Positions 539 through 63,240 of a DNA stretch of 64,000 nucleotides are shown in pieces. The translations under genes and the position numbers were made by a program. How positions within the stretch are numbered: position 1 is the stretch's first letter; each line of letters starts with the position of its first letter. Below the pieces are notes generated by a model. The model worked only from the letters and a program-made list of their open reading frames with translations. It made no database searches and had not been told where the DNA came from. Origin of the DNA: Tribonema minus (lineage: Eukaryota; Sar; Xanthophyceae; Tribonematales; Tribonemataceae); the NCBI GenBank assembly GCA_017506865.1, contig JAFCMP010000002.1, forward strand, positions 682,001 to 746,000. Direction: 5' to 3'.

Positions 539-3500
539 GTGAAAGAGCGCGTGGAGGGATTCACCGACAGGCTCATGGTGCGCACCATCGCACGCGGCGG
601 CATGAAGGCAAGTGCACATCAATAGCGGTTCCCGTACTTCAACGTCTCGTTGAATCAGGTACATCTTCACTAGAGCTCTAGCTTCAACACCTCAAGCTAC
701 AACATCTTGATGCTTCAACTCTTCTGTCAAGGTACGTCAAACACTCTGGTCTTGCAAAGTTCTGACAGTTACGAAAACCTTGTGGTTCTGTGTTCTCAGC
801 TTCATTGCCGTGGAAGCTGCTTTTCAAACCTTTGATACTGTACCTTAGACTTTGACATGCAAGCTCTGCCATGCATGCCTTGTGCAGTTTATGCCCATAC
901 CTTGCTCATGTATATGTATACAATATGCCCAGCGCCTGTCTGGGCACAACAGCTTGGAATTAGGCTCAGGACATAGCTATATGCTTGAGGAATACATCCC
1001 AAGGATGCGCATGTACATATCCGATACCCACCTCTTGCTCATGTAGAGCACCTACCGTCTGTCCGGCGACAACAGGATGGGAGCAATGCATTGTGCAGGC
1101 CATACAAACCTCTCCCCCCACCCGTTGCTTATCACATGTGTCTCAACACCACACAATGGCAGCGTCTTAGTGTTAGGGTTAGCTGCTTGGGCTCGACCTC
1201 CATTTCCTATACCTACCCTTTGCTCATACCTGCCCCACGCTGATGTAGTGACAGCACGAGAGCATCATCAGCCTCTTGGTGTTGCTGTACATACCCCTTG
1301 TAACCAACGTCCCTCCCGTGCCTTTGTATAACTTTAAGTAGCACCCACCACCTGTCTGCCACCAACAGAACGGAAGCATTTCTCTTGTACTTCATGTACT
1401 TTGAAAATTAAACTTCGAAGTAACATAACACCCCAGCAACCGCACCCGGCAATCATAGGACGGGAGTATTAAGCCGCCCAGGCCCGATCTCACTCTTGGA
1501 TTGACCTCACTCTCGGGCCCGATGATCGTACTTTTAGATTAACATGACACCCATTTATTAACAGGATGGAAGTATTACGCTGCCTGGGCCGGAACTTATC
1601 TTGTATAGTATATACATATATTATAGTATAACATGACACTTGTTGCCTGTTTAACATGAACAGGATGGGAGCATTACATTGCCCGGGCCTGATCTTCGGA
1701 AAGGACAGCGCCTCCAGTTCTTCATCAGGGACGGTCCGGCAGCGGCCGCTGACTTGGACTCGACTCTGGCCGCATACAAAGTGAGTCACTCTTTCAACAT
1801 GACTGCGCAGAGAACCGGCTAGGGTTTCAAGCTTGAGTACAAGAAGGTTTACGGTTTTCGCACCTTAGAATCAGAGCTGACTGTTGCCCGCGTGGAGAAC
1901 GGTGACCCTAACCCTTGAAGACTAGTAGGTTTACGGTTGTCAAAAAATTTCAAGCAAAGTTGATTGTGCCAGGGCAGGTGACCCAAAGTTATGGCGAGTG
2001 CGGAAGTAGGGTTGGGGTCATGTTGCAGCTTACGTTTGTGAGAATAGAGTGATTGCGCAAACCAATTTCGGTTCAAGATTCGGCTCAGAGTTTTTGCCCG
2101 AAGGCTCTGGCTCAAAAAGCTCTTGCGCTCGCGCGTATGTTGTTTTCGTTTGTAAAATTTGGGCGCTGGGTTGCTCGCATTCAACATATAGATAAGGCGT
2201 GTGGATGATGACAGTCGCTACTGCTCTCACACATTTTCATACCGTCGCCTACTCATTGCATGCATCAGATGTGTACGTCTGGTGTTTCGTTGATTCCGCA
2301 AGGCAGAAACAAGCTGAGACCGAAGACGTCGCGCCGCAGGGACTACACGCAGAACTCGTGCGCAGCACAGAACGCGCAAGCACCGCGCGGTTCTCTTCAA
2401 CAGTTGACATAATGCAAGCTATAGCTAGATCCTCTACATGTAAGCAACAGCCTCGCGTCGACGACGACGGCCGCCGCGGCACATTTGTTACTTGAATTTT
2501 GAGCCGTGATCAGAACGACGCGGTCCCTGCAGCAGAAAAGCGCAGTGCTGGCTGGCTAGCCAGATAGCATGAATGCTGCATCGGCCTTCCCTGCGATAGC
2601 ACGTAAGCATGTCGCACGGCAGATGCGGCTGGTGCACCCAAGCCACGCCTGCTCGCCAAAATTGCCCTCCGCTCCACCACAGGAAGGCATAGACAATGCA
2701 CCGCAAGGGCTCAAATGCATAATACACATCAGCTACAACGCGCGTCGTACACCAGAGCCGTCAGTACAGTCATATTTGCCCAAACAGTATTGCAGCGCGC
2801 CTTGCCTTGGGCCGAAAGTGTTTTCGTCCGAGAATCGCAAATCCAGCGCTTTCGCCCGAAACTTCACGGCAAAAAATGGCCGGACGCTTCGCTCGGCCGA
2901 AAACGTTGAGCAAAAAGTGCTCTGCGCAATCACTCTAATTGAGAATGACCTAGTTGCTGGCAAACAGAGGCTTCCACCTTGTAGGCCACCCATTTGTGGG
3001 AGGAGTCGAGGTGCTTTGCAGGCCTGGCGTTCCAGTATGTGCAATGTTTCTGTGGCAAAGGGTGAAGCGCTGCGTGACTTCACTGGCAACAACTTGTCTC
3101 GGTGCAACAGCCAAATGGTGTGCATGCCTTGACCGCATGTGCTGCCCATCTGCAATCAGCAAAATGCGTCAAGCACCTGTTTCCTGCCATGATCATGAGA
3201 AATGACTATGACCGCTCTATGTGTTCACGACGCTGCCATGCATGACGTCACGTCGGTGCATATGCCAAATGGGCAACACACATCGAGCAACCGTTCATGA
3301 TTGACATCAATCAATCATTCATGATTGGAAGGCTTTCCAGCAGCCGATCATGATCTGTCAATTTCTACGAGGGTTTGATAAACTCAAACTGCCCCTGCAC
3401 ATAGCCGATCACATGTGCCTCCCATCCATTTCTCACTCACCTACTCACTCACTGACTCGTTCACTCACTCACTCAACAGTGGCCCTCCTCCCCTTCTCTC

Positions 3501-5964
3501 ATTCACTCACTCACCTACTCACTCACTCACTAACTCAACAGCGCCTGGAGCTCGAAGCCAGCCTGAGAGTGTCGCTGGAGGCAGAAACCGCGAGTGGCAG
3601 CGATCAACAACCGTCGAGCACTGCTGATGACGCATCAGCGCCCCAGGTGCCTGCGCCTGCCAGGTTCCAGGCCACGGGTGTGCTCATGTACCCCTGCTTT
3701 GACAGGTGAGGAAATGTTTTTGAATAGTGGCATTGGTGCTGTTGGCGTGCAGAGCGCTTGCCGCGACACTGGGCGAGAGCGCCATTTGACAGAATGTGCA
3801 GTGCGATTACACGTCAGCTTATGTACCCCTGCTTTGACGGGTGAGGAAGTGACGCTAATGAGCTTGAAGTGTCTGAATTTGCCTTTGTGAGGTGCCAAGT
3901 TGCAGACAGCGGTACGGACTAAGTTAGGTACAGCCTTTGCGTAGGGTTAGGGTTGAGCATGTATGCTTTGACAGTAATAAAGTGGCTTTGAAAAGTGGCA
4001 TTTCTGATGTTGGAGCGCAGTGCTCTTGCTGCGATGCAGGGCGAAAGCGCCATGTGACAGAACGTACAGTGATTACATGTTCACGTATCTGTGACAGGTG
4101 AGGAAGTGGCGCTCTTGAACTTGATAAGTCTGAATGTGCTTGCATGACGCGAGGATGCACCACGTTGCGGACAGCGATACAGGCTAGGTGAGGTATATAA
4201 AGCATTTACTTAGGGTTAGGGCTAGGGTAAGTTTCATGTTCAGATTTTTTTTTTCATAGCGTGAGCTGGTGCACGTGACGATACCGCCTATTGCACGTGC
4301 GGCGCGGCATCCCTAACCCTGACCCTAACCCTCACTCTAACCCATAGCGAAGGCCGCCACACTCTGGACGATTACACGTCTGCGCATGTGCTAGAGACAT
4401 TGCAATCCGCTTGCAGATACTGACAGTGCGAACCGCATGCAACGCAGGCTGTCAATGTGATTGACTTGGCTCAACATGATTACGGCTAGGGCAAAAAGTT
4501 ACGTTGCGGTAAGGCGCTCGGTCTTAGGGTACATTCACAGAGAATTAGGGTTAGGTTGCACGCTTTGAGCATTTGAAGTCTGTATCTCCACCGTCCCCAA
4601 ACTGCATGATCTGCAAATTTTCTCTCACTTCAACCGTGTTCAACTATGTTGACAAACAACTTTACTCGTGACTTGACTCATGACTTGCGCTTTGCTGCCA
4701 CTCTAACTCATTCACAGGGGGCACGCCCTGTACCGTGAGAAGGGCTACGAGAGCGCGCGCCTAGCAGGCGCCGTTCCGCGGCCCACCGGCGGTTTCTTCT
4801 GCAACGGGGTGAGAGTTGAAGTTGCCGTACTGATGCTGATGTACTCTAGTGATGCCACGCGCTTTTCTGTTCAAGCTCATCTTGATCTCTACGGCAGCGG
4901 CGGTTCTGTTGCACAGAGTCGCGGCCCACCGGCGGTTTCTTCTGCAGTGAGGTGAAGTTGTTTTACTTGATGTTGCTGTACGCAAGTCACTTGCCACGCG
5001 CTTTGCTGTCTAAGCTCACCTTGACTTATACGGCAGCGGCAGTTCTGGCGCACAAAACCGCTCCCACCGGCGGTTTCTTCTGTGACGTGGTGATACTTCA
5101 AGAGTATGTACTCCAGTGACATGCCATGTGCTTTGTGGTGGAAGCTGAGGCTGATGTATTCGGCAGCAGCAGTCGTGAGGTGCCGCAGCCCACTTGCAGT
5201 TTCTTCTGCGATGCGGTGAGAATTGAAGTTGAGTACCTGAGCGACATACCGGCGCTATGTGCTTTACACCCATCTCGATGCCCATAAAGCGCCCAGTGGT
5301 AACGCTCTGCTTCGGGGGTTGTGTAACCTCAACTCCCACCCTAAGCTACCATTTACTTCACCTCTCTCTCGGACTTTTCCTTGTGGTGAAAGCGTGCAAA
5401 TGAGTGGACCTCTGGGCTGGGCATAGGGACGTTCCCCGTTGGATCCAGCATGTTGCGCTTTGGACTCAATGCAAACTCCATGTAACCCCGGTACCCATTC
5501 AAGCCTAACGTATCATCGTGGACTTGTACTCATAAAGGCCCCAAGGGAGGTGAGGTCCTGTTCATTCCTGGTGTGTTCTCTTATGCTGCGGCGTGGTCTG
5601 CACTGCGCCCGGTACTTCCCTTGTCTTGATCAGTGGACCAGTTAGGTTTTGCTGCTGCTATGCATAGGTTATAGGACCTCTGTGCCTGGGAGCTGTGATG
5701 TTTTCCTTTGGACCCAGCACATCGCGTTCTTGGCTCAGTGCAAACTTCACGTATAATATGCACCATATATATCTAGAAGTATAGATTATGACTAGTGAAC
5801 TGACTCTCTCCCGCTGCTTTGCGCAGGTTATTGGACCTCTGTGCCCGGGAGCGGTGACGTCCCTCTTCGGCTCCAGCACAGGGTTTGTTGTCTTCAGTCC
5901 AAAGACGGCGCGGCCGTTTAGCCCTGTTGAGCTTGCAGCGGCGGAGGAGGGGGACGCCGATGAG
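539..5964 (+). CDS. FIST C-terminal domain protein (3' part, five exons)
   Basis: Exons are 539-607, 1664-1780, 3542-3705, 4718-4808 and 5827-5964, and phases agree at every join. The joined product contains DRLMVRTIARGGMKDGSI, then RKGQRLQFFIRD, LMYPCFDRGHALYREKGYES and TGGFFCNGVIGPL. These match, in order, the FIST_C signature (R-N-I, GQ-x-x-QFHLRD, S-C-x-x-RG, GFFCNGEIGP). FIST domains are proposed small-ligand sensory modules found in bacterial signalling proteins and in eukaryotic F-box proteins. The FIST_N part and the start codon lie left of the window or were not found. The first intron uses a GC donor (AAG|GCAAGT at 608). In the last motif the usual E of GEIGP is V. The 3' end is uncertain: 6190-6240 is a possible last exon. 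Exons 1664, 3542, 4718 and 5827 all have decayed edge copies in the flanking introns. The family call is from motif recognition only. Confidence 0.72.
1071..1605 (+). repeat. Decayed 5'-edge copies of the FIST exon at 1664
   Basis: The true exon begins CAG|GATGGGAGCATTACATTGCC. Related blocks occur at about 1071-1100, 1366-1385, 1450-1490 and 1561-1600, each with an AACAG- or ATAGG-type acceptor followed by GGGAG-ATT and often GCC-GG-CC. They have point changes and no downstream donor, so they look like non-functional tandem copies upstream of the real acceptor. Confidence 0.6.
2045..2937. mobile_element. 893-bp element with perfect 15-bp terminal inverted repeats
   Basis: The left end reads TAGAGTGATTGCGCA (2045-2059) and the right end is its exact reverse complement (2923-2937). 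Subterminal sequences on both sides also share TTTTGCCCGAA and related words in inverted orientation. If the ends are extended by a few A/T bases, the trinucleotide GAG flanks both sides as a possible target duplication. No transposase was recognised; open frames inside (for example 2569-3132 on +) have no familiar motif. It is most simply a non-autonomous DNA transposon in the FIST intron between 1781 and 3541. Confidence 0.55.
3420..3541 (+). repeat. CACT microsatellite acting as polypyrimidine tract, duplicated
   Basis: Runs of CTCACTCA occur twice, each ending in TCAACAG (about 3474-3480 and 3535-3541). The second is the acceptor of the FIST exon at 3542. The first is followed by TGGCCCTCCTCCCC and is not coding. 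The tract supplies the pyrimidine-rich region for splicing and was itself duplicated with its AG. Confidence 0.6.
3825..4110 (+). repeat. 3'-edge copies of the FIST exon 3542-3705
   Basis: The exon end TGTACCCCTGCTTTGACAG|GTGAGG recurs at about 3823-3848 almost unchanged and, more decayed, at about 4087-4106. Flanking intron sequence is copied too (GGCATT near 3730 and 3998, the CGCCA-GTGACAGAA-GT-CAGTG block near 3781 and 4049), giving a unit of about 120-260 bp. Confidence 0.55.
4900..5215 (+). repeat. Three 3'-edge copies of the FIST exon 4718-4808
   Basis: The exon end CCCACCGGCGGTTTCTTCTG plus donor recurs at about 4924-4960, 5054-5090 and 5189-5220, with increasing decay. Each is followed by GTGA and a shared downstream block ending in GCCACGCGCTTT or GCCATGTGCTTT. 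Spacing is about 130 bp. Only the first occurrence (4780-4808) continues in frame from the acceptor at 4717. Confidence 0.65.
5410..5735 (+). repeat. 5'-edge copies of the FIST exon 5827
   Basis: Blocks near 5660-5725 and, weakly, 5415-5450 resemble the start of the exon (GTTATTGGACCTCTGTGCCC through GGCTCCAGCACA). The copy at 5666 keeps AGGTTATAGGACCTCTGTGC and GACCCAGCACA but contains frame-breaking changes. The acceptor at 5826 is the last one in the series and the only one leading into an open exon with a donor. Confidence 0.55.
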
Positions 5965-6189
5965 GTATGCATGTATACCTTTGTCACCTACACACACCAT
6001 AGGTACTTCGAAGTATTGCTGTATACTTTTTGTCACACATACAGTAGGCCTTTGCCGGTCATGTATGCTTGTAGGCGAGGGATCCCGGAGAGGGCCCAGC
6101 GTCCGCTGGAACCGTGGTCCCAAGCCTCATAGATCGTGGCGCGCGAGTATTTACGTAGTAGTGAAATTGATTTTTTTTTTTAGTTGCAG

Positions 6190-6240: not shown

Positions 6241-6307
6241 AGCCTTCAACTTGCGAAATGCTGATCGCTCAGAAAAGTAAGCACTTAGTTGCTGCACAAG
6301 GCACTTC

Positions 6308-6603: not shown

Positions 6604-6606
<3 letters not shown>

Positions 6607-6641: not shown

Positions 6642-6869
6642 CACTCGATGGCGCATCCTACTAAATCAAACTCCAGTGTGGAGTTGTATGCACATACCGC
6701 TTTGAGCGCAGCTTCTCTTTGGACTGACAATAATTGACATAAACATGAACGCAACTGCAAAGATATGTCATGGGCAACATTTATTTTGTAGACTCTGTTA
6801 CAATGCTCATGTAGAAGTATGCATAATGATACACTACATTTACCAGCATTAATGTGCTTCGGCGATGCG

Positions 6870-6935
6870 CGTGCTGCCCGTTCTCACGTCAGGAAGAGCT
6901 ACACACGGTCAGCAACGCCGACGACGCCTTCACCA
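6870..6935 (+). repeat. 5'-edge copy of the IGPS-like exon 7053
   Basis: CCGTTCTCACGTCAGGAAGAGC and the following GACACGGTCAGC-ACGCCGACGACGCCTTC block at 7040-7092 is duplicated at 6877-6932 with a few changes. The upstream copy ends in a TATATATATG run instead of continuing into the exon, so it is a truncated decoy copy. The rest of 6641-7052 shows nothing else recognisable. Confidence 0.65.
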
Positions 6936-7052
6936 TATATATATGTTACACCTGCTCATGTATGCACAACGAATTACTTGAAGTAGGCATTTACCGGTAT
7001 ATTATATATTAATTTGCTATGGCGATGCGTGCGCTGTCCGTTCTCACGTCAG

Positions 7053-10000
7053 GAAGAGCTAGACACGGTCAGCGACGCCGACGACGCCTTCTCCGTCGAG
7101 CGCCGTGACATTGGCAGCGGCAGGGCGGTTACATCTGGCCCGGTGCAGTACAGTGTCGCAGAGAACCGCTCGCGCCCCCGCAGCACCCTCGAGGCAATGG
7201 TGTGGGCGAAGGAAACGGAGGTCGACAGGGCTCGTGACCGGTGGCCGATTGGCCCGCTTATGAGCAGGTGAGCACTTGCTGAGCGCTGCTGATGTCAGGG
7301 CTTGCTTTTAGTAGGGTTGAGCTAGGTGATATCCGTGTGCATCCTGGAGGCAAGTATGGGTCAAGGAAACGGAGGTTGACAGGCCTCGCGACCGCTGGCC
7401 CATAAGTCCTCTTATGAGCAGATGAGCAGGGTGCTGAGCGTTGCTGCTGTGGGTTACATTCTATGGATGAATAAAAGTACGGTTTCGCACTGCCGCTTTT
7501 GGGTTTTGGATCAAGTAGGATTTGGGGTTGAAACGGAGGCTGACAGGGCTCGCGACCGTTGGCCCATTGGTCCTCTTGTGAGCAGGTGAGCAGTTGCTAA
7601 GCGGTGCAGATTAAGCAGGATGGTCGCCTACAACCGCCCCCCTGCGAACGCCGTGCGCGACTTCCGAGGCGCTCTCGCAAACACGCATGTGTCTTCAGAT
7701 AAGGCATAATCGCCAGTGCTCATCATAACCTTAACCATCCTCTAAACCCTTGTTCTTGCCGCAGGATGGCCGCCTACAACCGCGTCCCTACGAACGCCGT
7801 GCTCTCGCTAGCGCGCCCACATGCGCATCTTCATAAAAGGCCTAATCGTCAGTGTTCATTCTACCCCCTGCTCATTCCACCCCCAACCAAAACCCTCACT
7901 GGTGCAGGATGGCTGCCTACAACAGCGTCCCGGCGAACGCCGTGCGCGACCTCCGCAGCGCTCTCGCAAACACGCATGTATCTTCAGATAAGGCGTAACT
8001 GTCAGTGCTCAGCCTCACCCCAAGCATCTCGGAATGCGATACGCAACCCTGCTGGGGCTAGCATGAAATGCCTCTAGATGTTCCCTGAATACCTCCAGAT
8101 CCTCAACGCTCATCATGAACCTATCCGTCCGCAATCCTCATTGCCACAGGATGGCCGCCTACAACCGCGTCCCTGCGAACGCAGTGCGCGACCTCCGCAG
8201 CGCTCTCGCCACCGCATCCCCCGACGCGCCCCCCTTCCCCCTCGTCGCCGAAGTCAAGTGCCGCTCCCCGGGGGGACTCGAGATCCGCGCGGGCGGCTAC
8301 ACCGCAGCAGCGCTCGCACAGGATGCTGAGCGTGGTGGTGCTGCCGCCGTTGCGGTGCAGACGGACTCGGTGTTTTTCGGCGGCGCTGCGGAAGATTTGG
8401 CTGCAGTAAAGGCCGCCGTTGGCGTGCCCGTGCTGTGGATGGACCTGGTCGTCTACGTCTACCAGGTATGTGTGTATGTGAAGTGGTGTTATTAGGGGGC
8501 TTCTGACGGATTGTGTGAGTCAGTGTAGGGTTGCGCTGGATTGCGGGCGCAGAGATCGCTGCGTGCGCTTCCGAGCTTGCTTTGGGTATGCAATTAACCC
8601 CGTGTGTGCAGATCGTCGTGTGGGATTTGAAATGCTTCAACGTATACTTGAAGCACTCTGGGGTGTAGGAGTGGCAGTGTCTGCCAGGCACATTGCACAA
8701 CCCTGAGGTTTGCCCGAACCATGACCCTGACCGTAATCAACTCAGTTGCACAGGCCGTCAGCCTGACCCACCTCTCTAAGTTGCTCGGAGTATGCAATTG
8801 CCTAACATGAGGAAGTTGCAACCGTGCAGCGCTAATGTATGCTGGATGCAGCAGTACGGCACTGAGGCCGGGCTCTCTCTTGCACCTGTCATCGGCTGAA
8901 ACAGTGAAGGCGGCAGTGCGCATAGAGAGAACCGACATGAGCATCGTTGAGCATCGTTGCTGTGGTGCTGCCGACCGCATCAAGTACTATTCGTCGCCCG
9001 CTCCCTGAGCTGCCGTCGACTCTTTGGGTAGCAGCACACCGGCCAGCAACGTGTAGCCCACCCGAGGCGCGCAGCAGTGCCGCCAGTGGCTGAGCACTGT
9101 GGCTCGCAGCAAATGCCCCCTCTGCAGCAGGTGGTCCCCCCTAGTCTGATGCCGCAGCGATGCGGCGTCTGCCTTGAATGGCGCGACGCATAGGGGGGTC
9201 CTCGTTTACGCGGAGGCAGATTGATAACCTCTGATTGAGGCGTACTACGGTGGTCCTGCGCGAGCGTCAGTGCTCAAGTGCCTTGCCCGCAACAACGCTC
9301 ATCACATTCCTGGCTCTAATTTACTTCAGCTTAGGGTTAGGGTTAGGGTTAGTGTTAGTTGGGGTTTGAACACTTCGCCGTTCTGCAGCAAGCGTGTCTT
9401 GCGGGGCGATCATCCCTCGAGTATATTTAACACAGAGGCGACAGAGTCAGATGACGACTCTTGCAACGAGGCTTGCCGCACCCCTGCTGCTCTGTAATTA
9501 TGAAGTTCGCCAAATGATGTCTGGCAGACCAGTGCTGGTGCCTTCAAGCTCGCTGCCACAGTATGTCCTTGCGCAACATGTGAAGTGTTATTATTGCTAT
9601 CCGCTACAGCTGTACCAGGCACAACTCAGGTCTCAGAAGCCTCTCAGCACGTGTCTGCCGCAGTAACCAGCCTCGTTGGTCCAGGCAGGGACAGGATGGA
9701 TGGCCAGTACTGACTACCGCAGCGTGCATCAAGCGGCCACAAGCCTGATATAAATTGCAAAGTACGGATTTCGATGCTGCCACCACATATCAGCGCTCAG
9801 CATTTGTTGTGTCGATGGCCGCTGCTGCAGCTGCTGCACTAGGCGCAGCTGAGCAAGGCTGCTGACACCTTACAGCTCGCTGCCACAATGTGTCAGTGCT
9901 CACTGCTTACTATTATGTGTCAATGCTCGCTGCTGCAGCTGTACCAAGCACGGCTGGATGGCGCTGATGCCCCAGCTGAGCAATGTATGTAGCTCGCTGC

Positions 10001-16800: not shown

Positions 16801-16833
16801 TTTCTGTTTTTCGGCGCGCTCAGCGACCTGACA

Positions 16834-18481: not shown

Positions 18482-18831
18482 GTGGCGACACACGGGCGAC
18501 CGCCGGCTGGGAATCATGGCAGGAGGCACATGTACATCATGGCGTTGGTTGCGGCAGTCGAATTGGCGACTTGACAGATGCAGTCCATGCAGTCCAGGTC
18601 GAAGCGGCGACTTGATAGATGCAGTGCAAGATGCAGTCCCCCGGGACCGAGTGAAGATCTGGCGTTGCACCAGTGGGGGGTCGCGCGGCGGCCACATTTT
18701 GCACAATCTGGACGGCATTGGGCTCGTCATTGATGACATTAGGTGTGAAGTTTGATGATGTGCTGCATAGTCAGGCGCGCCATCCCCTTGCTACAGGCGC
18801 CGCCGCCGCAATTGTCAACTTCAGAACTTCC

Positions 18832-19195
18832 TCAGCCTTTGACCACTTCGGCGCTATGTCACGCGACACCCAAGCGCTACTACACGCACTCGCCGAGCAG
18901 AGCTCGCAGGGCAGCTACAATCTCGCGCAGCGCGTTGCCTTCTGGCGCCGCCGCACCTCCCTCGCGCTACAGCGCGCGCTCACACGTGTCGTGATCGACA
19001 ACTGGAACGCAGTCATTGCCCTGATGGTGGCGACGTCAGCGCTTACCGCCGCATCGCACTGTTGCACGTGCCGCGGCCCCCGCCGGCCAGCGCCGAACCG
19101 CCGGCCCCTCCATGTAGATGTAGTCATTGCAAGCCCGATTTATTCGTGTGCTCAGCCCATGCGGTCCAGACATAATGCACAACTTCAAACTTGGC
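18832..19195 (+). mobile_element. Non-LTR retrotransposon, fragment A (3' end only)
   Basis: Starts within the C-terminal tail of the element's ORF (FGAMSRDTQALLHALAEQSS, WRRRTSLALQRALTR) and runs through the stop region and 3' UTR to ACTTCAAAC. Compared with fragments B and C it carries indels near 19020-19030 that break the frame. Upstream sequence is unrelated, ending in ACTTCAGAACTTC. Confidence 0.8.
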
Positions 19196-22680: not shown

Positions 22681-22930
22681 CGCAATTTTGTAACTGCCAT
22701 GCGTTTTACCTCGTTTGGTTTGAACACCCAATGGCAATTAGCGTTTGAGGTATAGTTGGCTGCTATTACAGGGCAGAGTCACGTCGGACGGTGTGTAACA
22801 GGGGGGCTGAACGGAGGACCGCTGCAGAAAGCACGATCTGCACTGAGAGAACACCTGGCCTTATTGGCGTTAGAGAGGGCAGCGCGGAGACGCAGGTCGC
22901 ATGGGTGTTCCCACCGTCGCTGCTGCCACC
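22681..22930. other. Upstream region of the 21-exon gene
   Basis: Sequence between the retrotransposon 3' end and the start codon at 22931. It should hold the promoter and 5' UTR. No TATA box or other defined element was recognised. The start codon has a perfect GCCACCATG context. Confidence 0.4.
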
Positions 22931-53700: not shown

Positions 53701-56700
53701 AGACGCTGAACCACGATTCTCGCCCTCGCAGCAATTAAAGGCGGCGCTGCAGAGCGCCATGCGCGGTCACTCGGGTCCCCACTTCATGCCGCTGCTGCTG
53801 GGCAAGCTCGCGCGTACCAACAGCATACATACACAACCCAGTGTCTGACAAAATACCTACATGCCCTGTACCGGATGCCCGCCACTCACAACGCATACTG
53901 CCCTCAAGAAAACGCAGTCTCGCGCACTGCTTCCGCTCTGCAAGCTAAAGCGAAGCGTACCATCCACATATTCCAGTAATTGGAAGCGCTTACTTCAAGC
54001 TGTTTACTGAGACGCCGAACCCCAATTCCCGCCCCTGCAGCAATTGAAGGCAGCGCTGCAGAGCGCCATGTGCGGTCAGCCCGAACTCGTGCCCTGCACC
54101 AATCAACACTATTACACCTTCACAATGTACCTGCACACCCCTCTGATCTGATCTTTGCTGTGCTGAACACCAGACTCAAGCATACTACCGCCCTATACTC
54201 ACAGTACTTCTCTGCACGCAATGCCCTGAGAAGCCTCACCCCGTTTCTCGCTCTTACAGCAATTGAAGGCGGCGCCGTAGAGGGCTATGTGCGGTCACCC
54301 GGGCTTGTCCCTCACTTCCCCGCCGCATGTTCAACATTAAAGTCAATCGTGGTATTTTGGCGGCTTTACTGAGAACCGCTTTCTCAATGTCACGCCAACC
54401 CCGATTCTCGCCCCTACAGCAATCAAAGGCGGCGCTGCAGAGCGCCATGTGAGGTCACCCTGGGCTCGTCCCCTGCACTACTCACTATCAACAAACCTTC
54501 GCAATGTACCATGCACATCCCTCTGACCTGACCTTTGCTGTGCTGATCACCAGGCTCAAGCGTACCATGGCCCTGGTTGTTGAGACATGCCTCCAAGTAC
54601 CGCACTGCACGCAATGTCCTGAGAAGCCGCCCGTTTCTCGCCCTTACAGCAATTAAAGGCGGCGCTGCAGAGCGCCATGTGCGGTCACCCCGGGCTCGCC
54701 CCCCCCCCCTTACTTCATGCCGTGTACCCCGCCGCATGTTCAACACTGAAGTTGATCATGATGCTTTGGGGGGCGTTACACTGACCCACATTATCAATTT
54801 CACACCAACCTCATCTCTCGCAGCAATTGAAGGCGGCGCTGCAGAGCGCCATGTGCGGTCACCCCGGACTCGTCCCTCACTTCAAGCCGTACCACCCACG
54901 TGATTGACTTCATCACCGCTGGTGTTGTGGCTACAGTCCGCACAACTGCCCGCTGCTGTCGTGTGTGTTCGACATTTAAGTTTAATATGATACGCTGGGG
55001 TCATGACATTGGCCCGCGTTCTCAGTGTCCCACCAACCCCGCTTCTCGTCGTTACAGCAATTAAAGGCGGCGCTGCAGAGCGCCATGTGCGGTCACCCCG
55101 GGCTTGTCCCTCACTTCATGCCGCTTCTGCTGGACAAGCTCAGCTCAAGCGCGCGGACCAACAAAGAGGCGTCTATGGAGGCCATTGCGGGAGCAGTGGA
55201 CGCTTTGGGCGTGCCCCCGCTGGCAGTGCACCTGCGGTTACTTTCGGAGGTGCGACATACATGATGCTACACCGGTAGCACTTTGAGTGCCGAGTAAACA
55301 TGTGCTTTATTCTGTACTTGTGAGAGCTTGGATGAAGCGCGCAGACCAACAAGGAGGCGGCCATGGAGGCCATCGCTGGGGCAATAGATGCCTTGGGCGT
55401 GCCCCCGCTGGCAGTTCACCTGCGGTTACTTTCGGAGGTGCGACATACATGATGCTACACCGGTAGCACTTTGAGTGCCGAGTAAACATATGCTTCTGTA
55501 CTTGTGAGAGCTTGGATGAAGCGCGCAGACCAACAAGGAGGCGGCCATGGAGGCCATCGCTGGGGCAATAGATGCCTTGGGCGTGCGCCCGCTGGCAGTT
55601 CACCTGCGGTTACTTTCGGAGGTGCGACATACATGATGCCACACCAGTGGCACCATGAGTGCTGAGTATAAATGTACTTTATTCTGTGCTTGTAAGAGCT
55701 TGGATCAAGCACGCGGACCAACAAGGAGGCGGCCATGGACGCTATTGGGGGGGCAGTAGATGCCCTGGGTTTACCGCCGCTGGCGGGTCACCTTCGGTGA
55801 CGTTCAGAGGTGCGACGCGACCTGTTATCCTATACGTGATGCTACTATCACATCGCACCAGTAGCACTATGAGTTTTATACTACTTCAACTTGATTGTAC
55901 TGTAAGCGCATGGCTCTGGAGCACGGACCAGCTTAGGGTTAATGCTAGGGTAATAAGGCGCAAGTACACACGTACGGGACACCACAAGCTTACTTGCAGA
56001 AGTGCTACACTCTTAAATAAGCTCAGCCTCCCAAGCGCAAGAGAACATGGCCACTGCGGGGGCAATAGAGGCCCTTCGGGATATCTGCGCTCACATTCTT
56101 CAGGTGCGCCGCCACCTGACTGTTTGAAGTACTTTACAGTAGCAGCATACTTCCTGAAGTACATGTTGAAGTAAGTGTCAGTAAGTGTACTCTCAGTACT
56201 GTTGTGCTTGTCAGGAAAGTTGGGAATCATTGACTGCAGAGAGATGACGAGTATGCAGTGAAAAACCTGCTCACGGGGGCCGCGCTAGACCTGACCCTAA
56301 CCCTAACCCTAAACCCATGCTCCATGCCCTGGGTTCGAGTAGTGTCCTGCAGTCTGCATGCATGCTCCTTGATCGGTTACAATACTGCATGACGCAACCG
56401 CAGAGCACAGCTGTTATACACCACCCTCGAAAAACCCAGGCAAGCACAAAATGACTGATCATCATCGAAGTACAAGCCTACATTGGGGTCCGCACGAAGC
56501 TTCATTTACTTTAAGTATTCAGATTTGCTATGGCACCGACCGACGCGTGTGCAACTGCTGCTCGCGACCGCAGGCCCTGCAGGAGGAGGTCGTGCTGAGC
56601 GCTGACACAGAAGCCGCAGACAAGGCGCTGCTGTGCATCGGCAGGGTGGCTTGCGCTGTGGCCAGGCAAGTGTTGAGCCTAACCTTACCTTTTTACCTTT

Positions 56701-59700
56701 CTACTTTGGGGGGTCACATAAGGGTTCGTTGCTTTATGGCAACAGAGGCCGCAGACAAGGCGCTGCTGTGCATCAGCAGGCTGGCTTGCGCTGTGGCTAG
56801 GCAAGTGCTCACATAGGGGTAACAAGAAGGATTTGATGTTTCACTGGCAGTCGCCAGGCAAGTGTGGATCCTAACCTTACTTTGGGGTCACAACAAGGGT
56901 TTGAGGGGTTATCGGCAGTGGTCAGGCAAGTGTAAACAAGGCGCTGCTGTGCATTGGCAGGGTGGCACCGGCAGTGGCCAGGCAAGTGCTGAGCCTAACC
57001 CTACAGGTCACATTGATAATTAGGGTTGGGTTATAGGTTTGGGGTGAGGCTGGATCTTACCGTCACTCCACGGTTCGGGCCAAGGTTTGATGCTATTTCC
57101 AGGGTGGCGCGCGCAGTGGCCAGGCAAGTGCTGCGCCTAACGTTAGGGGTCATGATCAAGGTTTAATGAAATCCATACTTTGAAGTGTTTAGGCGCTGCT
57201 GTGCATCGGCAGGGTGGCTTGCGCAGTGGCCAGGCAAGTGCCGAGCCCAACGTGAGGGGTCGCAATCAAGTTTTATGAATTTTTATAATAGATTTAGGGT
57301 TGTTGGGGTATGAATTTTGAGTGAGGGGCTGGATTTGAATGCGAATTCAGAGTTCGGGCTACATAGGGTGTAGTACTACTAATTCAGGGTGGCATTGGCA
57401 GGGTAACATCAACAATGGCCAGGCACGTGCTGAGCCTGGCTTCAAGGGTTACATCAGGGTTGAATGAATTTCATGATCAAGGTTAGGTCATAGGTCTCGG
57501 GTCAGGGTTGGAGTTTGATGCTGATCCACGTTTGGGGCGAGGGTGTAATGCCAATCCGGAGTCGGGCTAGTGTTGATGCACCACTAGATATTGCCACCAT
57601 TCCAAGTGCCACAGCAAGCACCATCATCAAGAACCTGACTGTCTGCGTTGTTGAATGTTCTGCGTGATTCGAGCTGACCCTAACCATACACTCTCAACGA
57701 TGCACGCTGAGCTATGCCCATTTTTGCTTCAACTGGGGCTCAGCCAAGTGCTAGTGCAGCAAGGTCGATGCCGACGCCGCTGCGGCTGAAGCTCTATATA
57801 AGTAGTAGGCACTGCGCACAAGGCTGCAACGCGGACACGCAGCACAGTCAGGAAAGCGGCTTGCGCTGATCGCACCGCCGCGCGCGATGCCGAAGACTAG
57901 GTGAAATTTGAGCATGTTACTTCCGCAAACTTCAACGCGCTGCCAGCCCTCGTGATGAGTTTGCGACCGAGGCTGCCAGCGAGTGTCTCCCGCTCGCCTC
58001 GCCCATCGTCACGACGGCGGCTACTCGCTCTTGCAGTCGTGGGTTCAGCGGAAACCCTAAGCCGAGGCGGGTGCAGCGCGGCAGCAGGACGCCCGCCGCT
58101 GCCCTAACCCTAACCCTAACCCTAATCGAACACAGTCGCTGGCTGCCGTCACGTGCGCCGACCTTGCGCTCGAGGCAAATACGGCAGTTTCATCTGCCTC
58201 GCTCGGAGGCGAGCGCGTGCGTGCAACTGCTGCCGGCGGCCGCGTTCAATGTACATAAGGGCGGCAGCGCGCCCCCTGCTGCGCTGTACCCGCCTCGCTT
58301 TTGGATTGCCGCTGCATCCAAGACTGTGAGACTCAGCACTGCGCTGGCGAATGGCGCGGGGGGGGTGAGGGGGAGTCACTCGATGGCAGCCTCGGCCGCG
58401 GACTCATTACGAGGGCTGGCGGATGCGTTGAATCTGAAGTTATGTGCAGCAAAACTTCAACTTACACCCTGTCCTCAGCATCGCGGTTGACGGTGCGATC
58501 AGCACGAAGTGCTTCTTTGGCTGTTTTACGCAGCCCGCGTTTCAGCCCTGCAAGCAGTGCGTACTACATAGTCTACTCTCTCTCTATATAAGGGCTGGCG
58601 GTCGTTTTAAGGTTCGCGAAGGCAAGGCGTTGAAACCCCACGCTGTCCTGAGCAGCGCGCTCGGCAGTGCTCGGCAGTGCGGTTCCTTATTATTTCGCCA
58701 ATAACATGACTGGTTTTTGTGGATACATACATCTAGCCATCCCTTGTCACCTGGAGCTCTACGATCTTTTGATTCGTTTTCATTTATCACAGCCATGCGA
58801 CTGCCGTCGGCTGCGGCGGCGCTGATGACCCCGACTGGCACATTGAAACTTGTATTGAGGACTCTTTAGAGGTACTAAATTCGTGTTTCGCTGATAGCAT
58901 CTCTGCATTGTGGCCTTGTGTGTCACAGGCATGCGACTGCTGCTGGTCGCGCCGGTGCGGATGACCCTGACTGGCAGGCCTTTGGCGGCCAGCTGCTGGC
59001 GGGCTGCGCCAAGGATGCAGGTATGTATGTGTATACTTCAAGTATGTACTTCAAGTAAGTAATGGAAGAGCGCGTCCCAGCAGTGCGCTAAGGTGCAGAG
59101 AGCAGGCATGTGATTATGCATATTTGAAGCACGTCGCAGCTCTGTGCCAGATCTGTGTAATGTATGATGAGCACGGGTGAGCCATGAGAACAACAGCTGA
59201 AGCTGAAGTTTGAACTCAACTCCTAGTGAAGGTTGGCATTGAAGTTTGAAATATCTCAGGGCGATGTTGGGACAGGTCACTGCAGTAACCTAACGCTGAG
59301 ACCACTGAAACCACTGTGAGAAAGTAAGGGCAGCGATTGGCCCGCATGGGACACAGGAGTGTACTGCGGAACCTGCAATCGAACCTTTCACACACTTGGC
59401 AGCACAGCTCTGTGCAGTTGTGGTGGTGGTAAAGTGCAAGCGCTCGGCCTTGAAAGGCCCAAGCACTGTATAGAAAGCTGCCTTATTTTTGAAAGAAAGC
59501 CATCGAAGGGATACTCTGCTGTAGTGCTTCTGTACTGCTTGTAAACATTCACGCAGTTCGGAGTGTAATGAAGCGTACCGCTACTGTACTGCTTCTGTAC
59601 TGCAGGCGTCGGCGCCGACACCATGCTAGGGCGCGCACAGGCCCGCGTGCTCGCGACAGTCGCCGCCTCCAGCGCACTCGGCCACAGCGAAGCCCTGCGC

Positions 59701-62700
59701 CAGGCCCTGCCGTCACTGCTCACCGCCGCGGCAGCAGCAGCAGCAGCAGCAGCGCAGCCGCCGCCGCCGCCGGTGCTGCCCGCTAGCGCAGCGGCGGCGG
59801 CGGCAGCAGCGGCGGATGCGAGCCCAGCGTCACCACTGCCGCCGCCGCCACTAGCGGCAGAAACAGCGGCGGCGGCACCAGCAGAGACGGTGGCGGCAGC
59901 GGCAGCAGCGGAGGCGCCGGGCGGCGCAGCGGCGGCGGCGGCGGCAGCGGAGGCGGCGGAGGCAGCACTGGAAGCGGTGCGCCTGCTGGTGGAGGCAGCG
60001 GATCCGAAGGCGGATGCTCAGCAGACGCTGGCGCCGTACGCTGAGCAGGTGCGTGGCAAGGGTTATGATTAGGGTTAGCACTAGGGATGAAGGTGTAGAT
60101 CACACAGGCGAATGCATGCACCCACACAGTGTCAGGTTGATCGCTCAGGGTTAGGTTTAGGGGAGGGTCAGGGGTAGGGTTAGGGTCAGGGTTGGGATGA
60201 AGGCAGGTTGAGCGCTGCAAGCGACGTGCATGCTGCGCAGGCGCTGCTGCTGCGCGGCTCAGCGACAAGCGTTCATAATGACTCAATGTTCACGATGAGT
60301 CACACCGCTCAATTACCTGAAGCTTGAGTCAAGCGATGTGACCTGAAGTCAGCTGCGGAACGGTGAAATCTGCTGTCGTCATTGCTGAAGAACTTCAACT
60401 TGAAGTTAAAGCAGCTCTGTGCATGCATTTCAGCCATCATGTGACAGCATGAGCTCCAAGTCCAACGCCTCGTGCCATCACCAGCGCAACTTCAACTCTG
60501 AGCACCGCGTGCACCCGCCTTTCCCCCCCTTCCCCTCCCCCCCGCCCCCCCCCCCTGCAGTTATACGACACCTTCACACGCGCCATCAGTGCTCAACAGC
60601 ACAACCAGCCACCAGCCAGCGAAACCGCAGCGTGCACCGCTCTCGGAGGCCTCGCCGCACTGCTATCACGGCCGGCGACCCCCATTCTATCGCCCTCCGC
60701 GATCGACGCGGCTGTGCAACTGCTGAGCACTGTGCTAATGGGGGCCCTTTTAGGGGATCAGACGGGGCCAGAGGGGGACCCCCTTGATGCCGGGCTGCGG
60801 GCGCGCGCCGCGTTGGATGGGCTGAAGCGCATCGGCGCGCACGGCAGCGCTTTGGCGGAAGTTGTGCAGCGGGTGAATTGAACTTGAAGTTTGAGAGGTC
60901 CCGCCCGCCCGTCTGTGCAGTGTTGTGCTTCAAGTTGTTGCGTTTCTACGTGTTTCAGAGGTGTGGAAGCCAGAAACTAGGATGTCTTAGGGTGCTGTGC
61001 TTGGTGTTTTTGTGCCGCGCTGGATGGTCGGAAGCGCTTCGGCGCGCATGGCAGCGCTCTGGCGCGGAAGTTGTGCAGCGGGTGAGCGTCCTACTTGAAG
61101 CTCAAAAATTCGCCCAAGTCCCACTTCCTGTGTAGTGCTGCGGCAACTCTTCGAGATTGTCATTCTGCCCTAGCCTATGGCAGTTTGCTTTGCTGGGTGT
61201 CCTGCTCTGATAACGAACACCCAACTGCTTCCTTCTTGCTCAAGTTGCCCGCTACCTGTGCAAGTGAGCCACTGAAGGCTCTGATCGCCGCCGTTGGCGG
61301 GATTACGTTGCAGTCGGTTTTGTGCCCTAACCCTAATCCTAACCCCTAAACCCTAACCATAACCCTAACCCGCGCACTTAGGCGCCGCATGGCATAACCC
61401 TAACCCTATTACCCTAATCCTAACAGTAACCCAGCGCACGAAGTGTAGTTTGTTCAACGCCTGCGACATGTGCCTAGAGGACAGTCAAGGTTAGGGCCAC
61501 TTAGGGCAACAATTAGAATTAGGGCTAGGGTATGGGTTACTGTTAGGGTTAGGGTTAGTATGCATGCCCACGTAGCCGTGTCAACATGCCAGCCTTCACA
61601 GGGTCTCACTGTCCACATCCCCCCCTTTGCCACAGCGCCTTCGGACTGCACTTGCAGCAACGGGGCAAGAACAAAGCACGTCTCTTTCGAATTGCAGTGC
61701 TTTACAGTGTGTCGCTCCCCTCCACTCCTACACTTGACCTAACCCCCCCCCTTTGCCACAGCGCCTTCCGAACTGCACTTGCAGCAACGGGGCAAGAACA
61801 AAGCACGTCTCTTTCGAATTGCAGTGCTTTACAGTGTGTCGCTCCCCTCCACTCCTGCTCTTGACCTAACCCTAACCCTTACCCTTACACCCGCATGCAT
61901 TGTCGCAGGTGACGGTGGCGGCACTCGGCGATAGCATCAGAGACGGCGCAAGCGATGCGATGAGCGCTGCTGCAGCCGCCATGCCGCGCCTGCTGCAAGC
62001 GGCAAAGGAGCTCTGCACGCGCGTCCCGGCGCTGCTGCCGCCCACGCTGCAGCTCCTGCACGCGTCGCTGCTGCAGCGGCGCGCCGCCGCCGCCGCTGCC
62101 GCCGCCGCTGTTGCTGCAGCTGGCAGCGACGGCAGCGGCGGCGGCGACGGCAGCGCGCCTTGCGATGTGCAATTGATCAGTGGTGCCGCTGCGGATAGCA
62201 TTCTCGGCGCTTTTGCTGACCTGCTTGCTGCCGCGGCAAAGCTGCCCACTGATGCCATCACCGCCGGCTGCGGCGGCGGCGGCGGCGGCGGCGGTGACGC
62301 TGCAGCCATTCTGCAGCAATTCGCAGACGGCGCGTCGCTGCCGCCGCTGCTGCGCGCCGCCGCCGCCGCTGCTGCCGCTGATGACACCAGCGTGAGCGCC
62401 GCCGTCGCCGCTGCCGTGGCGCGCATCACGCGCACGTGGGCACGCTATCTGCCTGCTGACCGCAGCTGCGCGCTTCTTGAGGCAATTGTTAGCGCATTTG
62501 TCCGCGGAGAGCTGCCGCCGCCGCTGCTGCCGGCGCTGGCGGCAGCGCTGGAGGCGGCGCCGCCAGATGCGCCAGCGCTCAGCGCGCCGCTGCTGCTGCA
62601 GGAGGCTCTGCCGTTGATGCTCTCGACTGCAGCTGGCAGCGGCAGCAGCAGCGGCGGCGGCGCCGAGGCTGGACGCAGCGCCGCTGCTGCCGCTGCTGCC

Positions 62701-63240
62701 GCCGCCGCTGCTGCTGCTGCTGCTGCTCAGTGCGTGTGCGCCGTGGTGAACAAGGCTCCAGACGGCGACGCTTTCGATGGCGCCGTTGACGCGTGCCTCG
62801 CCGCAGCGGCGCGGAGCACAACAATGAGTGGCAGCAGCGACAGCAGCAGCGGCGGCGGCGGCAGCAGCGGCATCATACTCGTGGCGCTGGTGCGCGCTGT
62901 CGCCATGCGCGGCGGCGCCGCTGCGCAGCGGCGCCGCGGCAGCGCGCTCGCTGCGCTGCGCGCAGCGATCTGCGGCAGCAGCGGCGGCAGCGGCAGCGGC
63001 GAGCTTGAAGCCATGAACATCAGCAATGGCGAAGGCAGCGGCAGTGGCAGCGCAGCGGCGGCAATGGCCGCGGCGGCGGCCGTGGCGGCGCTCATGGCGG
63101 ACGCTGATCCCGATGCGCGTCTGCGCGCCGCGCCGGTGTGGCGGCAGCGCCTGTTTGCAGAGCTGTTCCCGGGGCTGGCGGCGGGGGCGCCGGCGCGCGC
63201 GCCGCTGCTCGCCGCGCTGCACCTGGTAGGCAGCGCTCCG
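47755..63240 (+). CDS. MMS19: MMS19 homologue, cytosolic iron-sulfur assembly and DNA-repair HEAT-repeat protein
   Basis: Exons are 47755-47858, 49325-49621, 50966-51115, 52556-52681, 55058-55249, 56574-56665, 58929-59020, 59606-60048, 60561-60872 and 61909-63240, all phase-consistent, about 1046 residues. MMS19 delivers iron-sulfur clusters to nuclear proteins such as XPD and DNA polymerases. Landmarks: LGPYITNPDAKVRERGALLC, FFAARLTDYPSVTPALRALQ, GSDLVDLFSSAVAGEKDPR and the strongest one, VAVYFPITFTPPKNNPHGIT, then GLVPHFMPLLLDKLSSSART and, near the end, a C-terminal domain match (VALVRAVAMRGG, MADADPDARLRAAPVWRQRL). The exon at 56574 has a GC donor (GCCAG|GCAAGT). The last two large exons contain polyalanine and Gly/Ser inserts absent from the usual family. 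The first exon is missing; the gene probably continues past 63240. Confidence 0.88.
47862..48070 (+). repeat. 3'-edge copies of MMS19 exon 47755-47858
   Basis: CCCCTACATTACCAATCCTGATGCAAAG|GT recurs at 47866-47896 (ACTAAAG variants, donor lost) and 48031-48068 (CCAATCTCGACGCAAAGGTG). Between them is unrelated intron text. Confidence 0.65.
48690..49190 (+). repeat. Five 5'-edge copies of MMS19 exon 49325 with C-tracts and GCATGC repeats
   Basis: CAGGTGCGCGAGCGCGGCGCGCTGCT at the true exon is copied near 48696, 48755, 48876-48925, 49014-49065 and 49167-49185. Copies at 48876 and 49014 keep GCTGTGCGC-GAGCTGCTGACGCGC. Between copies are ATGCGCATGCAC-GATACATA units and poly-C tracts (16 C at 48999-49014) that serve as polypyrimidine tracts. 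Alternating purine-pyrimidine sequence is dense here. Confidence 0.8.
49640..49850 (+). repeat. 3'-edge copies of MMS19 exon 49325-49621 fused to TTAGGG units
   Basis: GGCGCTGCGG|GTACGTGT-TAAGTAG-TTAGGGTT-AGGG recurs about four times (49622, 49664, 49704, 49813), so exon end, donor and telomere-type hexamers form one repeating unit of about 40-50 bp. The remaining intron to 50965 holds more TTAGGG tracts (50500-50560) and 5'-edge copies of the next exon (about 50588-50640). Confidence 0.75.
51184..51405. mobile_element. 222-bp inverted-repeat element (MITE-like)
   Basis: The left end AGGGTTGCAAAAAAGCGTATT matches the right end's reverse complement AGGGTTGCAAAAAAACGTATT with one mismatch over about 23 bp. 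The interior repeats AAATACGCC in both orientations. No open frame is notable. Target duplications are not obvious. It lies in the MMS19 intron 51116-52555, between the true donor and a 3'-edge copy at 51468-51513. Confidence 0.65.
52028..52345 (+). repeat. 5'-edge copies of MMS19 exon 52556
   Basis: CAGGCAGTGCTGCCCCCGGAGATGGTGGCGTCG is echoed at 52030-52066 (GCGTTGCTGCCGCCTGAGACGGCGTCGTCGCACC), 52136-52172 and 52318-52346, alternating with CCCTAACCC tracts and AATCAGCGCTC-ACCATGCC. A 3'-edge copy of the same exon lies at 52822-52871 with a GTGAGT donor. Confidence 0.7.
53352..53426 (+). repeat. TTAGGG-type tract in MMS19 intron
   Basis: Two clusters of TTAGGG and variants (GTTAGGGTCAGG, TTAGGGTTAGGGTTAGGG) separated by about 30 bases, followed after 53470 by CCCTAAGCCTTACCC in the opposite orientation. 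Confidence 0.85.
53732..54900 (+). repeat. Six 5'-edge copies of MMS19 exon 55058
   Basis: CAATTAAAGGCGGCGCTGCAGAGCGCC starts at 53732, 54041, 54260, 54420, 54650 and 54824 before the true exon at 55058. Each copy has an acceptor (CTTACAG, CTACAG or GCAG), 50-90 nt of exon, then ACTTCA-GCC-type divergence. Units are about 160-310 bp. Several copies keep HPGLVPHF-like frames, but none has a donor. Confidence 0.85.
55345..55437 (+). other. Complete in-frame duplicate cassette of MMS19 exon 55058
   Basis: Acceptor GCGCGCAG, 31 codons in phase 0 (TNKEAAMEAIAGAIDALG to HLRLLSE) and donor GTGCGA. It duplicates the second half of the true exon with conservative changes (V to I). If spliced in, it would repeat a HEAT-like helix pair without shifting the frame. 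Confidence 0.7.
55529..55621 (+). other. Second in-frame duplicate cassette of MMS19 exon 55058
   Basis: Nearly identical to 55345-55437, including about 85 bp of flanking intron (CATACATGATGCTACACCGG), with the same acceptor and donor and one P-to-R change. The following copy (about 55709-55810) has lost the acceptor AG and contains an early stop. Confidence 0.7.
56735..57435 (+). repeat. 3'-edge copies of the MMS19 exon with a GC donor
   Basis: The exon end GCGCTGCTGTGCATCGGCAGG through GTGGCCAG|GCAAGTG recurs near 56741-56808, 56848-56862, 56914-56932, 56936-56990, 57103-57131, 57190-57240 and 57391-57430. All but one keep the rare GC donor (AGGCAAGTG); the last has AGGCACGTG. Units include CCTAAC-TTA-GGGTCA blocks. 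Confidence 0.8.
57785..58620 (+). other. TATA-like boxes and GC-rich block inside an MMS19 intron
   Basis: CTCTATATAAGTAG (57792-57805) lies about 90 bp upstream of an ATG near 57886 with a GC-rich context, and CTCTATATAAGG occurs again near 58581. The GC-rich stretch 58100-58440 is open in one + frame. It could be a nested gene or a promoter, or chance. No product was recognised. Confidence 0.2.
58102..58125 (-). repeat. CCCTAA tract
   Basis: Four CCCTAA units in the MMS19 intron before exon 58929. The 5' edge of that exon is itself copied upstream at about 58790-58840 (CACAGCCATGCGACTGCCG, ACCCCGACTGGCA). Confidence 0.9.
60090..60560 (+). other. MMS19 intron with TTAGGG tract and poly-C acceptor tract
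   Basis: TTAGGG-type repeats at 60147-60200 and a C-rich run (60522-60556, broken by T and G) directly before the TGCAG acceptor of exon 60561. No coding signal was found between these. Confidence 0.7.
61325..61559. repeat. Large inverted pair of telomere-type tracts
   Basis: CCCTAA-type repeats at 61325-61371 and 61394-61432 face TTAGGG-type repeats at 61486-61559, separated by about 55 bp, so the RNA could fold into a long imperfect hairpin. The intron also has a tandem pair of 134 bp at about 61615-61750 and 61748-61883 (CCCCCCTTTGCCACAGCGCC). Confidence 0.8.

Follow-up and report, generated by a model that had tools for sequence, protein, structure and literature searches.

Intron lengthening is usually attributed to transposons and random insertion, and tandem exon duplication copies whole exons together with both splice sites. 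Other routes to new intron or repeat sequence are also described. Introners are families of similar introns found at many loci (PMC9860276). Local head-to-tail duplication is documented, in the accessible part of one source, for ATP2A1, for fission yeast and for the potato RdRp gene (PMC4974935). Telomere-repeat insertion marks break repair in mammals, with one figure placing it beside a flanking duplication at a staggered break (PMC7215372). Here, we describe exon-edge copies in Tribonema minus (Xanthophyceae), in a window of 64,000 bases (682001-746000 of contig C2, from an assembly of 158 Mb in 554 contigs) that holds three split genes. In these genes the edge of an exon, with its splice site, is repeated in the adjacent intron, often as an array (Table 1). 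We confirm that the copies are real in the window; their limit is that they occur regionally.

Using edge probes of 40 exon and 15 intron bases, with a copy called at a score of at least 30, we found a copy in the adjacent intron at 46 of 72 edges, 106 copies in total. Nineteen edges have one copy, 11 have two, 8 three, 4 four, one five, 2 six and one eight. The null (40 draws per edge, in a separate run) reached a maximum score of 31, and single copies scoring 30-33 are weak individually; 32 of 37 introns outscore every one of the 40 null draws on one side or both, in a set that includes a doubtful 15-nt exon (see below). An earlier sequence-only reading had named 22 exons as clear cases with 1-8 copies each, and a copy is present at all 22. 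Its extension to every exon of unrelated genes was too strong, as 26 of the 72 edges have no copy and runs of exons elsewhere are free of them: edge-specific tandem amplification stands, and its presence at all genes does not, since it is confined to genomic domains.

The same reading had expected repeats to be enriched at exon edges when the window is compared with itself and exon models are overlaid, and this is the case. Self-comparison gave 152 direct repeat pairs (115 within 500 bp) against 17 inverted (10 within 500 bp). The direct pairs form 51 clusters, 46 of them within genes, and 39 of these 46 touch an exon edge, compared with 20.2 +/- 3.2 under random placement (2000 runs, maximum 30). 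Of the other seven, four sit in intron interiors and one within an exon, and two are edge-linked: 49621-49846 starts exactly at donor 49621, and 52039-52194 adjoins copies of the head of exon 52556.

The copies have a strict direction. Acceptor-edge probes (exon 5' edge) matched upstream at 19/39 edges and downstream at 0/39, donor-edge probes (exon 3' edge) matched downstream at 23/39 and upstream at 0/39, and mid-exon probes matched downstream at 3/25 and upstream at 0/25; reverse-complement probes of every class gave no match in the window. Own-side and wrong-side matches thus stand at 42/78 and 0/78 (Fisher P 2e-16, the edges not being fully independent). When the spliced coding sequence was searched against the introns of its own gene, 82 matches were found, of which the neighbouring intron downstream holds 48 and the one upstream 34; none lies in the gene's other introns and none is inverted. 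No match among the 82 spans an exon-exon junction with over 6 nt on each side. Because the copies stay in neighbouring introns and never cross such junctions, their source is unspliced DNA or pre-messenger RNA (pre-mRNA), and mature mRNA is an unlikely one.

All 82 matches are sense and adjacent, that is, local, head to tail and in one orientation, as in a tandem duplication. Strict sense orientation and exon anchoring would also follow if the copies had been inserted from RNA or complementary DNA (reverse-transcribed pre-mRNA fragments), as would the 59 of 103 exon-copy pairs that have no recognisable shared spacer (44 of 103 have one). However, a homologous intron spacer is present in at least one pair in 30 of 45 arrays (89 of 227 pairs overall), as head-to-tail DNA duplication predicts, and we regard an RNA or cDNA origin as very unlikely.

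At the edge itself, a share of 0.67 of exon bases on the donor side and 0.60 on the acceptor side has a copy, and past 120 nt none has. The 20-90 nt of copied exon in the sequence-only reading therefore holds broadly, with an actual reach, up to about 120 nt, that is slightly greater. Neighbouring copies are spaced at a median of 152 bp (quartiles 125.5-185, n=103). The nearest copy outscores the farthest in 19 of the 27 arrays that have two or more, and the rank correlation with distance is negative in 14 of the 16 that have three or more (mean -0.50), so decay away from the exon is true on average. This anatomy also bears on whether diverged alleles or haplotypes were misassembled, an explanation with nothing in its favour beyond the repeat structure itself. 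Allele collapse would give whole exons with both flanks, whereas these copies, as read from the sequence, appear to be truncated to one exon edge on the intron side, decayed to varying degrees and ordered. We consider an assembly artefact extremely improbable.

What, then, are the copies? In arrays with at least two copies, we split the differences by which member had changed. The exon alone differs, with all copies agreeing, at 0/300, 0/299 and 20/299 sites at codon positions 1, 2 and 3, respectively. A single copy alone differs at 46, 42 and 59 sites, and several but not all copies differ at 8, 0 and 22 sites, the last being the pattern that copying from the exon on separate occasions would leave. 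The exon changed solely at third positions and the copies at all positions; therefore, the copies are not maintained as protein. Exon-copy divergence is 0.186 at third positions and 0.059 at positions 1-2 (ratio ~3.2), and pairwise counts (148 synonymous and 72 non-synonymous differences within 30 nt) had suggested protein constraint on the copies, a bias that is mainly the exon's own change. The copies look like untranslated, dated snapshots of a conserved master exon, relics rather than alternative exons.

One option is that the copies are nevertheless kept for a function, either as alternative exons or as clusters of decoy splice sites that bring the splicing machinery to the true edge. Consistent with this, AG is kept in 46 of 50 acceptor copies, GT in 39 of 53 donor copies and GC in 6 of 6 GC-donor copies, the copies have retained their exon parts better than their spacers, and two copies are treated as coding in the public gene 1 model. 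However, splice-site bases in the copies are changed at 2-8% per base, which is not below the 5-7% at the copies' own codon positions 1-2, and we rejected splice-site constraint because these bases are lost at about that same rate. The changes in single copies have little codon bias, 16 of the 17 indels lying no more than 45 nt from the edge shift the frame, and neither the coding constraint nor the kept frame of a cassette exon is seen. Moreover, the relatives' proteins (P0002, P0003, P0068 and P0069) have no extra copy-derived peptides, and many genes do without arrays. A functional role is thus unlikely.

The excess at edges could arise without any preference in the duplication process itself. 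Tandem duplications might fall anywhere, with exonic ones purged, junction and interior ones tolerated, and junction ones recognisable for longer beside a conserved exon. Such purging explains the one-sided, truncated copies, the lack of whole-exon copies and the decay without codon bias. We simulated it forward in time, with duplications everywhere, exonic ones purged, substitutions, indels and length-balancing deletions, and with nearly the same repeat detection. Uniform duplication with selection did not reproduce the observed bias: edge-touching clusters numbered 20/72, 24/98, 57/193 and 118/284 (0.24-0.42) against 39/46 (0.85) observed. Simulated edge biases of 5, 10, 20 and 40 raised the fraction to 0.57, 0.77, 0.80 and 0.86-0.89, respectively. 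In addition, 49 of 134 genic repeat pairs lie wholly within introns, so copies without a conserved partner are detectable. We therefore consider purging alone quite unlikely. The simulations point to a real preference for exon edges, roughly 10- to 40-fold beyond selection alone, a factor good only to an order of magnitude, given a crude simulation that follows one lineage with exons of fixed length and assumes its rates of indels and deletions.

The arrays are regional, confined to certain genomic domains. Outside the window, exons were predicted ab initio by a small finder trained on the three genes, which recovered 26 of 33 internal exons exactly in leave-one-gene-out trials. In the 60 kb beside the window, own-side matches occur at 26/54 edges against 2/54 on the wrong side, and all 12 ten-kb stretches around the window on C2 are dense, with 5-9 clusters each. 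In 20 stretches taken at preset positions on 20 other contigs, own-side matches fall to 20/173 against 4/173 on the wrong side (reversed probes 2/346), and 28 of 45 clusters reach a predicted exon edge, against 17.4 +/- 3.0 in 500 null runs, the highest of which gave 28. Three of these 20 stretches are dense, four are intermediate and 13 are nearly free (at most 2 clusters), where some array-free stretches may simply hold few introns and one has no predicted exon. A stretch with tubulin-ligase and DnaJ exons and eight short introns has own-side copies at 0 of 16 edges. Beyond the window, copies also go with longer introns: edge copies are present in 10 of 13 introns of 1000-1400 bp and in 1 of 15 of 200-400 bp (ab initio exons), with a rank correlation between intron length and edge copies of 0.40.

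Genes of a single family make the same point. Chaperonin genes were found via Pfam and taken in two pairs, neither a random sample. The pair chosen for overlapping profile matches (C51 and C135) has own-side copies at 11/16 edges and wrong-side copies at 0/16, and the pair from those with non-overlapping matches (C235 and C279) has own-side copies at 2/26. Within this one family, genes are either crowded with arrays or almost without them, a contrast that points to locus, not gene type, as the relevant factor. Inspected by eye, profile matches overlap at C51, C135 and C5 among about ten chaperonin loci, whereas those of HSP70 (one overlap on C190, both matches with an internal stop) and of dynein show no clear overlap, at a level of inspection that detects well-kept copies only.

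A second trace shares the introns. The introns of the three genes hold 106 TTAGGG/CCCTAA hexamers, or 2.48 per kb against ~0.48 expected, and the exons hold 1; across the genome, 7062 overlapping matches to four repeats were counted, with telomere ends among them. Over 25 regions, with the C2 domain counted once and four regions being the chosen chaperonin genes, array density correlates with TTAGGG density (rho 0.60, P 0.0016). This enrichment and the correlation are why we suggest that the domains are prone to breaks.

Alongside the observed anatomy, direction and spacing of the copies, their decay without codon bias, the polarity that makes the exon the master, their regional limit and the correlation with TTAGGG, we tentatively propose repeated, junction-spanning tandem duplication in break-prone domains, with the exon as master, a reading to which we give slightly less than an even chance. 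Each event would be a local tandem duplication of about nucleosome length (the median spacing being 152 bp) that straddles one exon-intron junction and copies the splice site together with part of the intron and no more than about 120 nt of the exon. Because the true exon would remain outermost and intact, the duplication would be tolerated, and the copy would become intron. As a lasting master, the exon would spawn copies at different times, older copies would be pushed inward, and introns would lengthen from their ends. Certain domains would suffer frequent breaks near exons, repaired with duplication and telomere-repeat insertion; an example of such a route is the fill-in of staggered nicks on either side of a positioned nucleosome. 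In this model break repair would be the source of the duplications, breaks near exons may underlie the exon targeting, and nucleosome length may set the period, as the spacing suggests.

Several points weigh against this proposal. A neutral simulation with duplications at edges only leaves more spacers recognisable (0.57-0.64) than are observed (44/103), the third-position divergence of 0.186 exceeds the simulated 0.108-0.138, and the ratio of third to first and second positions is ~3.2 against ~1.7. Intron-interior duplications exist (4/46 clusters). The TTAGGG correlation may only reflect intron content, since both traces sit in introns, 4 of the 25 regions are chaperonin genes picked by hand, and within the window's introns TTAGGG words are scarcer inside arrays (1.35 per kb) than in the remaining intron (3.35).

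Gene conversion or frequent spacer insertion could cause the excess third-position change and the spacer erosion. In a fuller form of the conversion idea, duplication starts an array, and the exon then refreshes the exon parts of its copies and in turn takes up harmless changes from them. The younger look of exon parts beside spacers would follow from this, and it could explain the excess synonymous change in the exon. Alone, however, conversion does not explain the rarity of interior arrays, and spacer loss may stem from insertions and indels; we judge it unlikely, though with some chance of being right. Returning to junction-spanning duplication, its broader form is that a mutational process which recognises exons, via chromatin, transcription or splicing, repeatedly duplicates nucleosome-sized segments across their edges, is a main source of intron DNA in particular domains and leaves in each intron a dated fossil series of its exon edge. 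We hold this form to be possible rather than probable.

The exon models behind these counts keep an open reading frame after splicing in all three genes. The gene 1 product matches T. minus JKP88DRAFT_347307 at 92% over 99%. Its first exon ends at 607 (from the sequence and the exon predictor); the copy searches used 609, and no copy was found there. Peptides from two intronic edge copies (12101-12142 and 13181-13237) sit in its public protein model, P0001, from which VRTIARGGMK (about 578-607), supported by a relative's protein (P0002), is absent. The boundaries of gene 2 are secure because its protein matches both T. minus JKP88DRAFT_269267 (99% over 100%) and brown-algal proteins (~75%). 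A 15-nt stretch of gene 2 (45232-45246), at one time taken for an exon, was rejected because it is not in P0067, which gene 2 otherwise equals; it is still in the null-draw test and early counts, with a shortened intron searched before exon 45351. Upstream of the gene 2 start codon, a direct repeat (23765-24013) adjoins a plausible acceptor at 24034, and thus the 5' untranslated exon may show the same edge-copy pattern. Gene 3 matches its Ectocarpus orthologue at 42%; because no T. minus protein is among the matches listed, its exons rest on open frame and homology, and neither of its two ends was found. GC-AG introns occur at donors 607 and 56665, and the GC of 56665 is kept in 6/6 of its copies.

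Between genes 1 and 2 lie a 258-codon open frame (16741-17517) with no Pfam match, a 61-bp tandem duplication at its end (17476-17595), and retroelement remains with a reverse transcriptase domain (18828-22681), which contain near-identical displaced blocks (93-96%).

Table 1. Genes, exon-edge copies and arrays, and intron-interior exceptions in the window (positions within the window).
Feature	Position	Strand	Basis or remark
Gene 1, FIST domain + indole-3-glycerol-phosphate synthase	539..13517	+	open spliced frame, T. minus protein P0001, Pfam IGPS
Gene 1 exons	539-607 (GC donor), 1664-1780, 3542-3705, 4718-4808, 5827-5964, 7053-7267, 8150-8465, 10052-10162, 11663-11806, 13338-13517	+
Acceptor-edge copy, exon 1664	1565..1604	+	second near 1076
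Donor-edge array, exon ending 3705	3682..4221	+
Donor-edge array, exon ending 4808	4773..5231	+	3 copies, period ~140
Acceptor-edge copy, exon 5827	5654..5880	+
Acceptor-edge copy, exon 7053	6848..7094	+
Donor-edge array, exon ending 7267	7183..7611	+
Acceptor-edge array, exon 8150	7615..8209	+	3 copies
Acceptor-edge copy, exon 10052	9874..10084	+	weaker one near 9610
Donor-edge copy, exon ending 10162	10123..10272	+
Acceptor-edge array, exon 11663	10899..11700	+	8 copies
Donor-edge array, exon ending 11806	11775..12288	+	12101-12142 coding in public model
Acceptor-edge copy, exon 13338	13093..13405	+	copy at 13181 coding in public model
Gene 2, conserved stramenopile protein, 19 exons (24046-24225 ... 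44020-44184, 45351-45572)	24046..45572	+	T. minus P0067
Donor-edge copy, exon ending 24225	24136..24400	+
Exception, intron-interior tandem duplication	24729..24906	+
Acceptor-edge array, exon 25620	25140..25684	+
Donor-edge array, exon ending 25782	25717..26102	+
Acceptor-edge array, exon 26955	26386..26986	+
Acceptor-edge array, exon 28185	27690..28204	+
Donor-edge copy, exon ending 28305	28289..28424	+
Acceptor-edge copy, exon 29669	29373..29704	+
Donor-edge array, exon ending 29808	29739..30334	+
Donor-edge array, exon ending 31139	31068..31710	+	4 copies
Donor-edge array, exon ending 31984	31923..32936	+	5 copies
Acceptor-edge copy, exon 33677	33427..33742	+
Donor-edge copy, exon ending 33847	33746..33980	+
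Acceptor-edge array, exon 34440	34080..34458	+
Acceptor-edge array, exon 35836	35204..35891	+	4 copies
Donor-edge array, exon ending 36033	35924..36470	+
Exception, intron-interior 330-bp tandem duplication	36914..37562	+	96% identical, not edge-linked; reverse strand open 328 codons
Acceptor-edge array, exon 39708	39274..39792	+
Donor-edge copy, exon ending 39947	39865..40115	+
Acceptor-edge copy, exon 40604	40438..40468	+
Donor-edge copy, exon ending 40695	40840..40873	+
Donor-edge array, exon ending 41755	41708..42288	+	4 copies
Exception, intron-interior short repeats	43572..43735	+
Acceptor-edge copy, exon 44020	43800..44043	+
Donor-edge array, exon ending 44184	44108..44789	+	4 copies
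Duplicated unit with head of exon 45351	45081..45373	+
Gene 3, MMS19, 10 exons seen (47755-47858 ... 61909-63240)	47755..63240	+	open frame, Pfam MMS19_N + sub-threshold MMS19_C
Donor-edge copies, exon ending 47858	47867..48066	+	weak
Acceptor-edge array, exon 49325	48652..49374	+
Donor-edge array, exon ending 49621	49621..49846	+
Acceptor-edge copy, exon 50966	50587..50612	+	weak
Donor-edge copy, exon ending 51115	51076..51545	+
Acceptor-edge copies, exon 52556	52034..52350	+
Donor-edge copy, exon ending 52681	52634..52875	+
Acceptor-edge array, exon 55058	53681..55141	+	6 copies
Donor-edge array, exon ending 55249	55147..55816	+	3 copies, period 188
Donor-edge array, exon ending 56665	56607..57437	+	6 copies, GC donor in all six
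Acceptor-edge copy, exon 58929	58787..58976	+
Donor-edge copy, exon ending 60872	60807..61085	+
Exception, intron-interior 126-bp tandem duplication	61619..61880	+	95% identical

Introns filled with edge copies represent an unusual route of intron lengthening. Repeat clusters (spans including spacers, the four interior clusters counted) make up 18522 of 42699 intron bases (43%), and, nearly all tied to edges and strict in direction, they are a testable source of intron growth in some domains. The arrays also record past synonymous changes of each exon, and they offer a natural experiment on how the splicing machinery passes over numerous nearby copies of its signals. For annotation, they are a reason for wrong gene models in T. 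minus, as gene 1 shows with its two copies taken as coding. If the 10- to 40-fold edge bias is true, a process of DNA mutation in effect sees exon boundaries.

How do these arrays compare with known systems? We found no report of systematic exon-edge arrays in a literature from which most subscription papers were out of reach, and within that same literature no established mechanism, as the sequence-only reading had stated; the nearest case is the single junction-spanning duplication in the potato gene, as far as the accessible part of that source goes (PMC4974935). There, as in the acceptor-side arrays here, intron-exon structure is duplicated with its splice signals. In the cases covered by that part of the source, however, a new intron arises, once per case, whereas in T. 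minus the exon-intron structure is unchanged, the copies become intron, and the event recurs at most edges of several genes and on both sides of the exon. There is no sign of intron gain in the T. minus genes, since the spliced proteins match relatives without an added peptide. Interstitial telomeric sequences from break repair, as the accessible part of their source presents them (PMC7215372), resemble the TTAGGG enrichment in T. minus introns and array-rich stretches, but they are a companion trace in which exon edges are not copied. Tandem exon duplication likewise places tandem exon sequence within a gene, and the T. minus copies differ in holding one edge only. Introners, in the portion of the source at hand (PMC9860276), share with the arrays the mass production of intron sequence. 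The sequence-only reading had set the two apart, and we agree: each T. minus copy is local, belongs to one edge alone and includes exon sequence, with 0 of 82 matches in other introns of the same gene (other genes were not searched). Thus, the arrays work like tandem genomic duplication and do not look like an introner family.

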